From Alphaproteobacteria bacterium (lineage in GTDB: Bacteria; Pseudomonadota; Alphaproteobacteria; Rhodobacterales; Rhodobacteraceae): DNA of 36,709 nucleotides. Position numbers and translations under genes: made by a program. How positions within the stretch are numbered: the stretch's first letter is position 1; each line of letters begins with the position of its first letter. Below, piece after piece: positions 1,684-8,321 of the stretch. The stretch is taken from contig VGDE01000011.1 in the NCBI GenBank assembly GCA_016869875.1, positions 1-36,709 on the forward strand, written 5' to 3'. Below the pieces are notes generated by a model. That model made no database searches. It had not been told where the DNA came from and was given only the letters and a program-made list of their open reading frames with translations.

Positions 1684-2082
1684 CTAGCTGTCGGCCCCTG
1701 CCCCGAACACGGGATCAAGATGCCATTTCGGCAGCGGGCAGGACACGCCCCCGCCCGTCTGCATGTCAGGTTCCGCCCCGCCCGGATAGGCGCCCAGAAC
1801 CGTGAAGTCGCTGCTGGCGGAGCGGCAGCAATGCGCCAGGCCGGCAGGAATGATGACAACATCCCCCGCCTTCAGGACCACGTCCCGACCCGCCTCGCCG
1901 CCAAGGCGCAGGACGGCCTGTCCCCGATGGCACCCCAGCACCTCATGCGTGGTCCGGTGGAAATGATGCCAGTCGTAAACGCCACCGGACCATGAACCGG
2001 TCCAGCCGTTCACGGCAAATTTGTCGCGGAACCAGACGGCGCTTGGCGTGCCCGTGACGGCGCGATGGAGAACCGGCTTCAC
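1684..2082 (-). CDS. Small cupin protein (YjlB-like)
   Basis: A 132-residue single-domain cupin, a beta-barrel that usually binds a divalent metal through His/Glu side chains. Visible elements are HHFHRTTHEVLG at residues 39-50 (cupin motif 1, with H40, H42, H46 and E47) and GDVVIIPAGLAHC at 73-85 (motif 2, with H84). The following LGAYPGG..PDMQTG resembles the YjlB family. The start is taken as GTG at 2082 because it overlaps the upstream TGA in the four-base GTGA arrangement typical of translational coupling; a longer frame from 2118 would overlap the dehydrogenase gene by 40 bp. The reaction is unknown. It is co-transcribed with a dehydrogenase, a thioesterase and an acyl-CoA ligase. Confidence 0.82.
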   Translation of the reverse strand: MKPVLHRAVTGTPSAVWFRDKFAVNGWTGSWSGGVYDWHHFHRTTHEVLGCHRGQAVLRLGGEAGRDVVLKAGDVVIIPAGLAHCCRSASSDFTVLGAYPGGAEPDMQTGGGVSCPLPKWHLDPVFGAGADS

Positions 2083-2945
2083 CGCTGCAGCCGCGCGATC
2101 AGCGACGAGGTGTCCCACCGCCCCCCGCCCATCTGCTGCACCTCGTTGTAGAACTGGTCCACCAGCGCCGTGACCGGCAGCAGGGCGCCGACCTCGTCCG
2201 CCGCGGCAAGGCAGATCGCCAGGTCCTTGCGCATCCAGTCCACGGCGAAACCGTGATCGAACTGCCCTTGGGCCATCGTCTTGTGGCGGTTGACCATCTG
2301 CCAGCTTCCGGCGGCGCCCTGGCTGATCACCTCAACGACCTTCTCGACATCCAGGCCTGACTTCTGGGCAAAGGCCAGCGATTCGGACAACGCCTGGACC
2401 AGACCCGCGATGGCGATCTGGTTGCACATCTTGGTCATCTGGCCCGCGCCGACCTCGCCCATCCGGCGGCAGATCCGGGAATAAGCCTCGATCACCGGCG
2501 CGGCGCGGTCATAATCCTCCTGCATGCCGCCGCACATCACCGACAGCTGGCCGTTCTCGGCCCCCGCCTGCCCGCCGGACACCGGCGCGTCCACATAGCC
2601 CAGCCCGGCCGCCCGCGCCGCCTCGGCCAGTTCGCGCGTCACGCTGGCCGAAACGGTGGTATGATCGACAAAGACGGCGCCGGGCGCCATGCCGGCAAAG
2701 GCGCCATCCTCGCCCAGGCACACCTGCCGCAGGTCATCGTCGTTGCCCACGCAGGCCATCACGAACTGCGCCCCTTTGGCGGCCAAACGCGGGCTGGGCG
2801 CGCTGCGGCCGCCGTGCCGGGTTGTCCATGCCTCGGCCTTTGCACTGCTGCGGTTATAGACCGTGACCTGGTGCCCTGCGGCCGCCAGATGCCCTGCCAT
2901 GGGAAAGCCCATCACGCCCAGTCCCAGAAACGCGGTTCCTGCCAC
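2079..2945 (-). CDS. NAD(P)-dependent oxidoreductase, 3-hydroxyisobutyrate dehydrogenase family
   Basis: A 288-residue beta-hydroxyacid dehydrogenase. The Rossmann signature GLGVMGFPMAGHL spans residues 8-20, the substrate-binding motif DAPVSGGQAGAENG residues 119-132, and GAGQMTKMCNQ carries the conserved Lys172 and Asn175. All catalytic positions are present. The family reduces or oxidises small 2-methyl-3-hydroxy acids, tartronate semialdehyde or succinic semialdehyde; which one cannot be decided here. The start is GTG at 2945, five bases after an AGGAGG ribosome site; upstream in-frame codons lack family similarity. It is the first gene of the leftward cassette and overlaps the cupin start by four bases. 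It is divergent from the penicillin-acylase-like gene. Confidence 0.9.
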   Translation of the reverse strand: MAGTAFLGLGVMGFPMAGHLAAAGHQVTVYNRSSAKAEAWTTRHGGRSAPSPRLAAKGAQFVMACVGNDDDLRQVCLGEDGAFAGMAPGAVFVDHTTVSASVTRELAEAARAAGLGYVDAPVSGGQAGAENGQLSVMCGGMQEDYDRAAPVIEAYSRICRRMGEVGAGQMTKMCNQIAIAGLVQALSESLAFAQKSGLDVEKVVEVISQGAAGSWQMVNRHKTMAQGQFDHGFAVDWMRKDLAICLAAADEVGALLPVTALVDQFYNEVQQMGGGRWDTSSLIARLQR

Positions 2946-3012
2946 GCCGTCCTCCTGCCGTTGCACCATTCCGACAGACTGTGGCCCGGGCGACCCGATG
3001 GTCCCCCTTGCG

Positions 3013-3041
3013 TTGAAATGGCCGCGCGCCTGTCCTATGCA
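3013..3041 (+). promoter_or_regulatory. Candidate sigma-70-type promoter for the penicillin-acylase-like gene
   Basis: TTGAAA (3013-3018) and TATGCA (3036-3041) are separated by exactly 17 bases, about 70 bases upstream of the ATG at 3112. It lies in the 166-bp divergent intergenic region 2946-3111, where nothing else is recognisable. This is a match by eye only. Confidence 0.4.
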
Positions 3042-3111
3042 GCACACCACCACCCACGCGCATCCGGGTCAACCCGCGCCGCGCCAGAACCGCCCAAGGA
3101 CCCTGCCCCAC

Positions 3112-5529
3112 ATGCTGACCATGTTTCGCTGGCTTCTGCGGCTGACTGTCGGGTTGATCGTCCTGATGGTCTTGTCGGCGGCGCTGGTCTGGTATTTCGC
3201 CGTGCGCTCGCTGCCCGACTACAACGCCAGCTACCGGGTCGAGGGCATCATCGCACCGGTCGAGATCGTACGTTCGACCGAAAACGTCCCCCACATCTTC
3301 GCCCAGACGGATCAGGACGTGTTCTTCGCGCTGGGGCTGGCCCATGCGCAGGACCGGCTGTTCCAGATGACCCTTTTGCGCCGTGCTGCACAGGGCCGGC
3401 TGGCCGAGATCCATGGTGCCGTGGCCCTGCCCGCCGACGACCTGGCCCGCAGGTTGGGACTTTATCGCAATGCGCAGGCCTCGCTCGAGGTGCAGGACCC
3501 TGAGACCCGTGCGGCGCTGACCGCTTATGCCGGGGGGGTGAACCAGTGGATCCGCATCGTCAATGACGGTGCGATGGGACGCGGCGCGCCCGAGTTCTTT
3601 CTGTTTCCCGACGTGATCTCCTACTGGCAGCCGGCTGATTCGCTGGCGATCCTCAAGCTGCTGGCCGCCAGCAGCACCGATGCCGCCGCGGACGAGATCA
3701 TGCGCGCCCGCCTGTCGCTGGCCTGGCCCGAGCACGGTCCCGACATCCTGGCGCGCACCGACGTGCCTGCGGACCTTCCGCGCTATGCGGACCTCTTTCC
3801 CGGCGCGCGCATCGGCATGCCCGAGCGCAGCATCAGCCCGGACGCGGCCCGCGCGCCGCTCAGCTATCTGCGGCCGGGAATGGCGATGGGGGGAAACGCC
3901 TTCGGCGCGGCACCGCAACGCACGGCAGCAGACGCATCGCTTTTGGCTAATGACCTGCATTCCAAGCTGACGGCGCCGTCGCTGTTCTACCTGGCGCGGC
4001 TGGAACTGGCCAGCGGCGGCGTCATCGGCGCAACCGTTCCCGGGATGCCCCTGGTCCTGTCAGGCCGTTCTCCCGGCCTGTCCTGGGCGCTGACCCCCAC
4101 GGACATCGACGATGCCGACATCGCCATCGAGGAGGTGCAGCCCGGCAATCCCGATCGTTATCGCGGGCCGGACGGCTGGACCAGCTTCCAGACCCGGACA
4201 GAGGTGATCCGCGTCCTGGATGCCCCGAACCAGACCGTCACCCTGCGCGAAACGCTGAACGGCCCGGTGGTGCCGGGCCTGGATCCGGGTCTGCGCGACG
4301 TCACCCCGATCGGTCATGTGGCAACACTTCGCTGGACGGGGGCTTCGCAACAGGATGAGACCATGTCCGCGCTGATGGGCCTCATGCGCTCGGGCACCGC
4401 CGAAGAGGCCGCGCGCGCCCTGACCAGAGTCGTCGCTCCGGCCCTTTCCGTGACCCTGGCGGACGACCAGCGCGTGACGCACCTGCGCGCCGGGGCCTTG
4501 CCCGAGCGGGGACCCGATCATCCGACGGGGGGGGCCCTGCCCTCGCCCGGTTGGCTCCCCGAGACCACTTGGCAAGGTGTCACGTCTCTGGCCGGAGCCT
4601 TTGAAACTCCCGCAAGAGGCATCAGCATTGCCACGGAAGAGCCCGCAGATGCCGGTATCCGGCGAGGCCGGCTGGAACGCCTGCTGGGTGATCGGGAGGT
4701 GCATTCCCGCGACAGCCTTATCGCGGCCCAACTGGACGTGGTCAGCCCGGCCGCGCGGGCGCTTCTGCCGCTGGTCGGGGCGAACCTGTGGTTTGCAGGC
4801 GATCCCGCAGCGCCCGGCACGGCCGAACGGCAGCGCCAGGATGCGCTGAACCTGCTGGCCGAATGGGACGGCGCCATGAATGAACACCTGCCTGAACCGG
4901 TGATCTACGCCGCCTGGATGTCAGCCCTGCAGGATCGGCTGATCCGGGACGAACTTGGCCCCTTGTCCGATGACATCATCCGGTTGCAGCCCGGCTTCAT
5001 CGACGCCGTCTTTCGCAACCGCCGCGGTGCGGCCCGCTGGTGCGACATCGTGCAAAGTGCCGCGACCGAGGATTGCGCCACAATCGCCCGCCAGGCGCTG
5101 GACCGCGCGATCCTGGACCTGTCGGCCCGCTTCGGTCCCGATGTGACCAGCTGGCGATGGGGCGATGTGCACCAGGCGCGCCACCTGCATCCGGGCCTTG
5201 GCAACCTGCCGGCGCTAGGTTGGATCATGAACATCACCCAGTCCATCTCGGGAGGGGAGTTCACCGTCGCGCGCGCCGGCCTGTTCGGCAGCGGCACCCA
5301 ACTCTTTGACGCGGTGAACGGCGCGGGCTTCAGGGGCGTCTATGACCTTGCAGATCCCGACAGTTCGGTCTTCATCATCTCGACAGGACAGTCAGGCCAC
5401 CCCCTGTCGCGCCATTACGACGATCTGGCGGGCTTGTGGCGGCGCGGCGAATACATCGGGATGTCGCTGGACCGGGATCTTGCCCGGGCCGCCGCGACCG
5501 GGATCACCACGCTGACCCCCGCCGACTGA
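3112..5529 (+). CDS. Penicillin acylase family protein, catalytic Ser replaced by Gly
   Basis: An 805-residue homologue of Ntn-hydrolase amidases (penicillin G acylase, AHL acylases). An N-terminal hydrophobic segment at about residues 6-30 should act as a signal or anchor, placing it in the periplasm. The alpha-chain pattern VPHIFAQTDQDVFFALGLAHAQDRLFQM and the beta-chain C-terminal pattern STGQSGHPLSRHYDDL are well preserved. In active members the proenzyme cleaves itself just before a serine followed by Asn (S-N-x-W/F), and that serine is the nucleophile. Here the site reads G260-G261-N262-A-F, with codon GGA at 3892-3894. The downstream LLANDLHSKLTAP aligns as usual. The protein may therefore be uncleaved and inactive, or use another residue. 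The ATG at 3112 follows AAGGA by 11 bases. It stands alone, divergent from the dehydrogenase cassette. Confidence 0.88.
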   Translation: MLTMFRWLLRLTVGLIVLMVLSAALVWYFAVRSLPDYNASYRVEGIIAPVEIVRSTENVPHIFAQTDQDVFFALGLAHAQDRLFQMTLLRRAAQGRLAEIHGAVALPADDLARRLGLYRNAQASLEVQDPETRAALTAYAGGVNQWIRIVNDGAMGRGAPEFFLFPDVISYWQPADSLAILKLLAASSTDAAADEIMRARLSLAWPEHGPDILARTDVPADLPRYADLFPGARIGMPERSISPDAARAPLSYLRPGMAMGGNAFGAAPQRTAADASLLANDLHSKLTAPSLFYLARLELASGGVIGATVPGMPLVLSGRSPGLSWALTPTDIDDADIAIEEVQPGNPDRYRGPDGWTSFQTRTEVIRVLDAPNQTVTLRETLNGPVVPGLDPGLRDVTPIGHVATLRWTGASQQDETMSALMGLMRSGTAEEAARALTRVVAPALSVTLADDQRVTHLRAGALPERGPDHPTGGALPSPGWLPETTWQGVTSLAGAFETPARGISIATEEPADAGIRRGRLERLLGDREVHSRDSLIAAQLDVVSPAARALLPLVGANLWFAGDPAAPGTAERQRQDALNLLAEWDGAMNEHLPEPVIYAAWMSALQDRLIRDELGPLSDDIIRLQPGFIDAVFRNRRGAARWCDIVQSAATEDCATIARQALDRAILDLSARFGPDVTSWRWGDVHQARHLHPGLGNLPALGWIMNITQSISGGEFTVARAGLFGSGTQLFDAVNGAGFRGVYDLADPDSSVFIISTGQSGHPLSRHYDDLAGLWRRGEYIGMSLDRDLARAAATGITTLTPAD

Positions 5530-7106: not shown

Positions 7107-8243
7107 TCAGGCCGAAAGGGACTGCAGGGGCACCGCCTGCGCCTCAGCCAGGAAATCGGGGTGAGGACCCAGCAATGCCAGCGTGCAGGCGCGGCCCTGC
7201 TGATCCAGCCTCAGGGGAGATTTCTTCAAAAACCCGAACCCGTCCTCGTCCACTGTCCACGCCGGCAGCGCATAGGCGGGGCCCGTCAAAGCGATCACCT
7301 CCAGCAGGAAATTCACCACCGCAGTCTTGTCCTGGACGGCGGCCGAGGCACGGAACGCCGCGCGCCTTTCGCGCAGCGCCCGATCCTCGGGGATGATCAG
7401 CGCGTCGATCAGCAAGACCAGCCTGTCCAGGTCCTGCCCCGCCAGCCGTTCTGCCAGGCCCTGCAGATCCCAGCAGGACTTGTGGCGGTGCCCGCGCCCG
7501 ATGGCCCACCGGCTGATCGCGACCTCGCCCCGCTCGACGATCTGGACTTTCCGGTCCGTCAGACGCATCCGCCGCCAGAAGGTCAGGAAATCCGGGTCGC
7601 GCAGGATGGCAGGACCAAACGACAGCGCAAAGGAGCAGTAATGGAAATCCGCGGCAGCCGTTTCGATCTGCCACGATCCTGCATGGCCGCTGCCAGCCAT
7701 GCCGCCGTTGCTGACAGCCCCGATGAGATCCGGCTCCGCCGCTCCTGCGCCGGGCTCGCACAAGCCATCGGCCACAGCCAGCCAGTCCCGTCCCTGCCCC
7801 ACCGGAAACCAGATCGAGTCGTTGGTCAGGACCAGCCGGTCTAGTCGCGCAAGGCGTTCGCCCAGCCACAGCAGCGCCGCGCGATAGCCGCCGATGTCAA
7901 AGCCAAAGTTCCGCCGCTGCGCGACCTGCCAGCACAGCGGCAGCAGCCGCGCAAGATCCTGTTCGGACAGGGGCAGGTTGGCCACAACCAGAGCCGCATA
8001 GCCCTGCGCCAGCAGATGCCGCAAGGCCACCAGATGCGAGGGCAGCACGCCGGACGTGGGATAGATCGCGTAGATCGCGACTTTCCGGTGCAGGGGCTGC
8101 GATCCTGGAACGGGCCGCAAGCGCCGGGTCCGCGTCAGGTCATGCCAGCGCGTGTACACCACGTCGTTCCAGGCCAGCGACAGGCGCGACGCCTCCCACC
8201 TGAGGCGGCGGCTGGCGCGCGATGCAAGGTTCGATCCCGACAT
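7107..8243 (-). CDS. RgpF-domain (rhamnan synthesis F-like) protein
   Basis: A 378-residue protein resembling the RgpF family, found in polysaccharide and O-antigen assembly genes and thought to act in glycan transfer. The clearest signature is the region from KVAIYAIYPTSG through RRNFGFDIGGYRAAL to LVLTNDSIWFPVG, matching the family's N-x-G-x-DIG-x-Y and LxNDS patterns. It has no membrane segments, so it is probably cytosolic. The start is uncertain: ATG at 8243 (AAGGA ten bases upstream) is chosen over an ATG at 8279. No other polysaccharide genes are nearby, so the acceptor is unknown. It lies between lpd and an MFS gene with about 80-bp gaps. Confidence 0.72.
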   Translation of the reverse strand: MSGSNLASRASRRLRWEASRLSLAWNDVVYTRWHDLTRTRRLRPVPGSQPLHRKVAIYAIYPTSGVLPSHLVALRHLLAQGYAALVVANLPLSEQDLARLLPLCWQVAQRRNFGFDIGGYRAALLWLGERLARLDRLVLTNDSIWFPVGQGRDWLAVADGLCEPGAGAAEPDLIGAVSNGGMAGSGHAGSWQIETAAADFHYCSFALSFGPAILRDPDFLTFWRRMRLTDRKVQIVERGEVAISRWAIGRGHRHKSCWDLQGLAERLAGQDLDRLVLLIDALIIPEDRALRERRAAFRASAAVQDKTAVVNFLLEVIALTGPAYALPAWTVDEDGFGFLKKSPLRLDQQGRACTLALLGPHPDFLAEAQAVPLQSLSA

Positions 8244-8321
8244 TCCTAAATCGTCCTTTTGCCCCGGCTGCGGGATCATGGCCAAGGCAGGTCCGGCAGG
8301 TCAAGACGATCCGGACAATCC

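Follow-up and report, generated by a model that had tools for sequence, protein, structure and literature searches.

A penicillin-acylase-family protein of Paracoccus with glycine or alanine in place of the catalytic serine

Pseudoenzymes are a known kind of protein, and they reveal the roles that a protein has apart from catalysis. In penicillin G acylase (PGA), the backbone NH of residue β69 and the side chain of Asn-β241 are the two donors of the oxyanion hole. For the family member MacQ, the published description places the oxyanion hole at the main-chain N of Val272, possibly together with Asn480 (PMC5566955). Penicillin G degradation by Paracoccus sp. is the subject of two papers. Here we describe a penicillin-acylase-family gene in a 36,709-nt stretch of contig VGDE01000011.1 (hereafter, the window) from a genome that named relatives place in Paracoccus, the well-studied genus of P. 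denitrificans. The gene (3112..5529, + strand, stop included) encodes a predicted membrane-anchored protein of 805 residues belonging to PF01804. Our searches of open-licence papers found no report of a penicillin-acylase pseudoenzyme shared by an entire genus and no described function for this Rhodobacteraceae protein.

Catalytic positions in Paracoccus and its relatives

The 805-residue frame is uninterrupted from the ATG at 3112 to the stop codon at 5527-5529, and it matches the PF01804 (Penicil_amidase) profile over residues 49-789 (profile positions 1-671 of 675; E 2.5e-167). An AlphaFold model built with no templates (pLDDT 88.2, pTM 0.90) has the predicted fold of an N-terminal nucleophile (Ntn) hydrolase acylase, aligning with the D-succinylase 7ea4, its nearest fold, over 695 residues (VIA Z 46.0, rmsd 2.6) and with several PGA beta chains at Z 26-27. 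At the place of the Ser-Asn cleavage and nucleophile motif, the protein has G260-G261-N262-A263 (3889..3900, +; GGG GGA AAC GCC), with Gly261 encoded by the GGA codon at 3892..3894 (+). Residue 261 is the first residue aligned by VIA and stands opposite residue 1 of many beta chains, including those of PGA, cephalosporin acylase and PvdQ. Ser260 of the serine-bearing orthologue L031, which shares an alignment column with residue 261 of the window protein, aligns with Ser1 of crystallised acylase beta chains. Sequence and structural alignment therefore agree that Gly261 occupies the nucleophile position, residue 1 of the beta chain, as the original prediction had claimed from the DNA.

The substitution extends across the genus. 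The gene was matched in 123 of the 125 Paracoccus genomes (the other two gave no match), and every one of the 123 has Gly or Ala at position 261. Counted by locus, Ala was found 83 times and Gly 41 times among 124 loci, one genome contributing two pieces; in the frame-shifted L171, which is split into two overlapping pieces, the Gly comes from the second. The 115 full-length proteins, from which L170, with its broken frame, and all translations shorter than 780 aa were excluded, comprise 80 with Ala and 35 with Gly. Across the family, the gene was matched in 388 of the 394 Rhodobacteraceae genomes searched, a set that includes the window genome and a second Paracoccus. The site was read in 123 of the 392 from other genera, and 121 of these have Ser, including one (L349) in which the protein is a distant paralogue and not an orthologue. 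Of the picks, 47 and 20 came from the best matches and 60 genera were taken mostly for weak or split matches; 4 of the 80 further loci did not reach the site. Among named loci, which come partly from the same genomes as the unnamed ones, Gly or Ala is present in 39/39 from Paracoccus and Ser in 41/41 from other Rhodobacteraceae. Whether the glycine is common to a clade, a check proposed with the original prediction, is thus answered at the level of the genus, with Gly or Ala throughout.

In a FastTree tree of 229 proteins, built with the catalytic columns retained, the Paracoccus sequences are monophyletic (support 100). Their sister group, which comprises eight genera, has Ser, and the tree implies three changes of state at the site. 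At 0.468 substitutions per site, compared with a median of 0.053, the Paracoccus stem is longer than all but one of the 227 internal branches, and that one is where the tree was rooted. Within the genus, parsimony gives about 17 switches between Gly and Ala at position 261 and none to Ser, Thr or Cys, although 108 of the 115 codons (all GCN and GGC) are one base from a Ser codon; the GGA of the window is not. This absence of return suggests, without proving, selection against a nucleophile at the site.

Two further catalytic positions, numbered as in PGA by eye from a sequence alignment, are also altered, a change that the original prediction missed. Glu509 (4636..4638, +) stands at the position of Asn-β241, the oxyanion-hole side chain; in the 115 Paracoccus proteins this column is Gly in 64, Glu in 44, Asp in 5 and Ala in 2, never Asn, compared with Asn in 47/47 other genera. 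Pro329 (4096..4098, +) stands at the position of Ala-β69, the backbone-NH donor; it is Pro in 114/115 Paracoccus proteins and Ser (35), Thr (6), Ala (5) or Asn (1) in the 47 other genera. Proline has no NH to donate. The β23 position is His283 (3958..3960, +) in the window protein; in Paracoccus it is Gln in 66, His in 41 and another residue in 8, and it is His in 47/47 of the first other-genus set. The oxyanion Asn position is followed by a loop remnant (4639..4668, +), and the distance from residue 508 to 520 varies from 11 to 138 residues in Paracoccus, compared with 25 in 46/47 other genera. A subgroup of the genus (L157, L165, L060, L155, L159, L158 and relatives; 12/115 proteins) carries insertions of 61 to 138 residues in this degenerate loop, and the long insertion of L163 is rich in Ala, Pro and Gly, as though the former active-site loop could lengthen freely.

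Together, these alignments indicate that the nucleophile and both oxyanion donors were lost genus-wide, Gly261 being one of at least three catalytic losses. Because all three are gone, the ancestral amidase activity has very likely been lost in Paracoccus. By descent and fold the protein belongs to PF01804, but it lacks the catalytic features that define an acylase. It falls below the cut-off of the PvdQ profile NF051460 (22.7 bits against 950), as does the serine-bearing L031 (58.9 bits).

A different nucleophile or chemistry, at the same or another site, could still make the protein an enzyme. The strong purifying selection described below would fit this, as would the 23 positions at which Paracoccus is conserved and most others differ (for example, E364, R367, D577 and Q661) and the Ser or Thr found at position 260 in 53/115 Paracoccus proteins. 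However, position 260 is Gly in 59/115, both oxyanion donors are lost, and the only Ser, Thr or Cys column above 90% in residues 240-300 is Thr271 (114/115). As Thr is also present there in the Ser-Asn paralogue L263, Thr271 is not a new nucleophile, and a nearby conserved Ser, Thr or Cys as the true nucleophile (for Ser or Cys, the finding named in advance as refuting the original prediction) was rejected over this interval. Outside 240-300, the screen for a new active site was limited to Cys and returned positions 644 and 655, which are Cys in both groups. We consider continued enzymatic activity improbable.

Selection, constraint and the pocket

Of the 117 Paracoccus copies not truncated by contig ends, 115 have open frames. 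Nei-Gojobori ratios of nonsynonymous to synonymous substitution (dN/dS) range from 0.053 to 0.312 for 38 Paracoccus pairs sharing no sequence, and from 0.045 to 0.174 for 14 pairs of serine-bearing relatives, with a median, read by eye, of about 0.13 in both. Selection on the gene in Paracoccus is thus about as strong as on the serine-bearing version in its relatives. With its catalytic residues gone and its gene under purifying selection, the protein qualifies as a pseudoenzyme, and the claim that it is intact and not a decayed gene was borne out. A gene in decay or a sequencing error would fit the degraded, very length-variable catalytic loop and the broken frames of two copies, in genomes G121 and G023, the only broken copies not explained by contig ends, which could be assembly errors. 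It is hardly credible against the agreement of 123/123 genomes at the site, the open frames and a dN/dS far below 1, and at the genus level it is refuted by the site agreement and the low dN/dS.

The tempo of change was gauged against the neighbouring dehydrogenase gene (described below). The median ratio of acylase to dehydrogenase distance is 1.80 within Paracoccus, 1.84 within other genera and 2.31 across the boundary, for pairs that are non-independent and include some genomes twice. In Paracoccus, 41 of 325 conserved columns were lost in the acylase and 0 of 126 in the dehydrogenase. With the long stem, the pattern resembles a single episode of rapid change at the loss of catalysis, followed by normal constraint.

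Mean column entropy is clearly higher in Paracoccus than in the other genera in four bins: residues 246-280 (1.44 vs 0.92 bits), 456-490 (1.59 vs 1.18), 491-525 (2.19 vs 0.90) and 701-735 (1.53 vs 0.89). The first and third of these contain the nucleophile position and the oxyanion Asn position, respectively. Outside the four raised bins, the mean is 0.92 bits in Paracoccus and 0.96 bits in the others. Conserved columns were lost at 13/35 inside the active-site segments and at 28/290 outside (Fisher test, p 6.4e-5), the segments having been chosen after the entropy profile was seen. Bin 1-35 is tighter in Paracoccus (0.84 vs 1.44 bits). It covers a hydrophobic helix at residues 2-33 of the model (3115..3210, +), which, read by eye, is a putative uncleaved membrane anchor.

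The pocket bears on a further claim of the original prediction, that the protein may serve in the periplasm as a binding protein or decoy for acylated amides such as N-acyl-homoserine lactones (AHLs), its dead pocket still binding N-acyl compounds uncut. Binding can outlast catalysis, as the PvdQ double mutant S1A/N269D was solved with a pyoverdine precursor, according to its entry (5ubk). In Paracoccus, Asn262 is retained in 90/115 full-length proteins, and position 317 (β57) is tighter than in other genera (S97/T12/A6), which would also suit a binder. An acyl-compound decoy should, however, keep its pocket. In a mapping made by sequence only, position 188 (α146) is S62/T25/A21 and others in Paracoccus compared with Leu in 37 of 47 other genera, position 284 (β24) is A29/F27/V26/G13/S8 and others compared with Leu in 42 of 47, and position 331 (β71) is variable compared with Tyr in 42 of 47. 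We take α145-146 to be Arg-Phe in the PGA alignment. Positions α146 and β24 are named as affecting substrate choice in the title of the PvdQ mutant entry 4bth. With Leu lost and the residues varying at both, and with no AHL evidence at the locus, the decoy claim is not supported, and we regard this role as unlikely.

Proposed role of the uncleaved chain

Comparison of the losses, the predicted fold, the selection and the locus leads us to infer, with fair assurance, that the Paracoccus protein is a genus-wide pseudoenzyme whose uncleaved, membrane-anchored chain has a scaffold or protein-binding role, or a structural role in the envelope. On the branch to Paracoccus, a membrane-anchored Ntn acylase near-universal in Rhodobacteraceae would have had its nucleophile Ser replaced by Gly or Ala and, on the same branch, would have lost both oxyanion-hole donors (Asn-β241, and the β69 NH through Pro). 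Because these are missing, the chain would be expected neither to cleave itself nor to hydrolyse amides. A single folded chain of about 805 residues would then stay in the inner membrane, facing the periplasm, and the gene would be kept for a catalysis-independent role of scaffold and anchor, most likely the binding of a protein partner or a structural part in an envelope complex. If this is true, the label 'penicillin acylase' misleads for the Paracoccus gene, and the non-catalytic role concerns a protein present in 388/394 of the family's genomes searched.

Several observations weigh against this proposal. Part of the old site survives, in the form of His283 in the window protein and Asn262 in most of the genus. 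Constraint on the scaffold in Paracoccus is similar to that in the other genera and no greater: of the 23 entropy bins, 11 are lower, 8 exceed the other genera slightly (by at most 0.25 bits) and 4 do so clearly, in a comparison of one genus with 47 genera that is uncorrected for divergence and in which entropies are not rates. The relaxed segments 456-490 (bases 4477-4581) and 701-735 (bases 5212-5316) have no evident link to the active site. Frames are broken in two Paracoccus copies (L167 in G121 and L170 in G023), and the G076 piece, cut by a contig end, is also frame-shifted. Last, dN/dS tells that the protein is needed, not its task, and stability alone may constrain the fold.

Site loss was also found in other lineages. 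L302 (G297), 57% identical to L031, has Thr at the site, has lost β23 and the oxyanion Asn, and has a shortened oxyanion loop; L343 (G502), at 37% identity, has Val at the site. Both appear, from their sequences, to have lost the nucleophile independently of Paracoccus. In L319 (G141), Ser is retained and Asn262, β23 and the oxyanion Asn pair are lost. L343 and L319 retain the divergent dehydrogenase, and no dehydrogenase was found in the 1.5 kb beside L302. Given these two apparently independent nucleophile losses, the family may have a core function that does not depend on catalysis. In a bolder version, offered tentatively, the acylase of this locus would always have been dual, an amidase and a catalysis-independent envelope scaffold, with the scaffold conserved. 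Catalysis would have disappeared once at the base of Paracoccus and again in no fewer than two further lineages (L302 and L343), with L319 a third on the way; in Paracoccus, the site would from then on have been kept as Gly or Ala, as though selection disfavoured a nucleophile.

Inactive subunits act in some other Ntn complexes, and the protein might likewise be the regulatory partner of an active paralogue. Some Paracoccus do carry paralogues about 26% identical to it. Eight were read (L260-L266 and L268; about 25-31% identical), of which six show Gly-Ser-Asn-Asn and in two the site fell within an unaligned insert; acylases with a nucleophile thus appear, by their residues, to exist in Paracoccus as paralogues. 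However, another PF01804 gene (E 1e-20) is present in only 22/125 Paracoccus genomes, by an eye count that disregards split or broken copies of the gene described here, and no second one was found in the window genome, an 81% complete draft. Such a partnership was rejected as a general role because of this narrow distribution, and we hold it to be very unlikely. The scaffold or structural role remains the reading that we favour.

The locus and comparison with known acylases

Divergent from the acylase gene lies a gene for an NAD-binding protein of the 2-hydroxy-3-oxopropionate reductase/3-hydroxyisobutyrate dehydrogenase (HIBADH) family (2079..2969, - strand, start codon uncertain; PF03446 and PF14833), which scores under the NCBIfam cut-offs of the named enzymes. 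The dehydrogenase adjoins the acylase in 133/139 Paracoccus and 40/41 other loci. The 7 loci without a visible dehydrogenase end too close to show one, and the divergent pair (window 2079-3112) was seen in every locus long enough to show it among the 180 tested. The distance between the two alignment starts, which are not proven start codons, has a median of 102.5 bases in Paracoccus and 87 in the others. A Lys of the catalytic type, judged by its motif, is present in the dehydrogenase of 93/93 Paracoccus and 93/93 other loci; these counts, like 139 and 41, are of loci and not of independent genomes.

Other flanking genes are sparser. Among the 139 Paracoccus loci, lpd was found in 29 (7 of these matches being weak, under 40% identity), a cupin gene in 22, a thioesterase gene in 18, an acyl-CoA synthetase gene in 16, queA in 14 and an RgpF-like gene in 1. 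None of these was found in the 41 other loci; many loci of the whole set are too short to show them. Present in few Paracoccus loci and in none of the others, they were rejected as part of the system. In the window, the RgpF-like (rhamnan synthesis) gene lies at 7110-8285, between lpd and queA; a similar gene was seen only in L184. In the nearest named relative, L180, lpd and queA are present and the RgpF-like gene was not seen.

The locus offers a natural comparison, since one gene, with its position and neighbour unchanged and selection on it similar, has a complete catalytic site in related genera but lacks one throughout Paracoccus. The serine-bearing orthologues, such as those of Rhodobacter capsulatus (L250) and Thioclava marina (L222), have the same divergent dehydrogenase, a similar length and 55-56% identity, and a C-terminal GQSGH motif is common to both groups. 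Unlike Paracoccus, they have Ser-Asn at 261-262 and an oxyanion loop with Asn-Thr-Asn-Asn; their activity is assumed from these residues.

Among the closest solved folds are the Cupriavidus D-succinylase 7eby (Z 45.8, 701 residues aligned) and the cephalosporin acylase precursor 1keh (Z 37.1, 623 residues aligned), with cephalosporin acylase precursors and their spacer mutants aligning at Z 36-39. Both 7eby and 1keh are enzymes, and 7eby, unlike the Paracoccus protein, retains Ser-Asn and the oxyanion-loop Asn-Asn. A single-chain, uncleaved form, as predicted for the Paracoccus protein, is seen in the MacQ mutant 5c9i, which still works and has its catalytic Ser, according to the published report (PMC5566955). 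Failure to cleave alone, on that account, does not kill a family member. The closest parallels at the site itself are laboratory mutants with Ser changed to Gly or Ala at β1, described in their entries as PGA S1G of Kluyvera citrophila (4pem) and PvdQ S1A/N269D (5ubk), with which the fold alignments begin at model residues 258 and 261, respectively (Z 26.7 for 4pem). In the Protein Data Bank (PDB) listing, chain A has 286 aa in the S1G entry 4pem compared with 222 in the S1C entry 4pel, and by analogy the Paracoccus protein is probably uncleaved. In those entries the change was made by mutagenesis, whereas the Paracoccus change arose naturally, is old and is accompanied by other losses.

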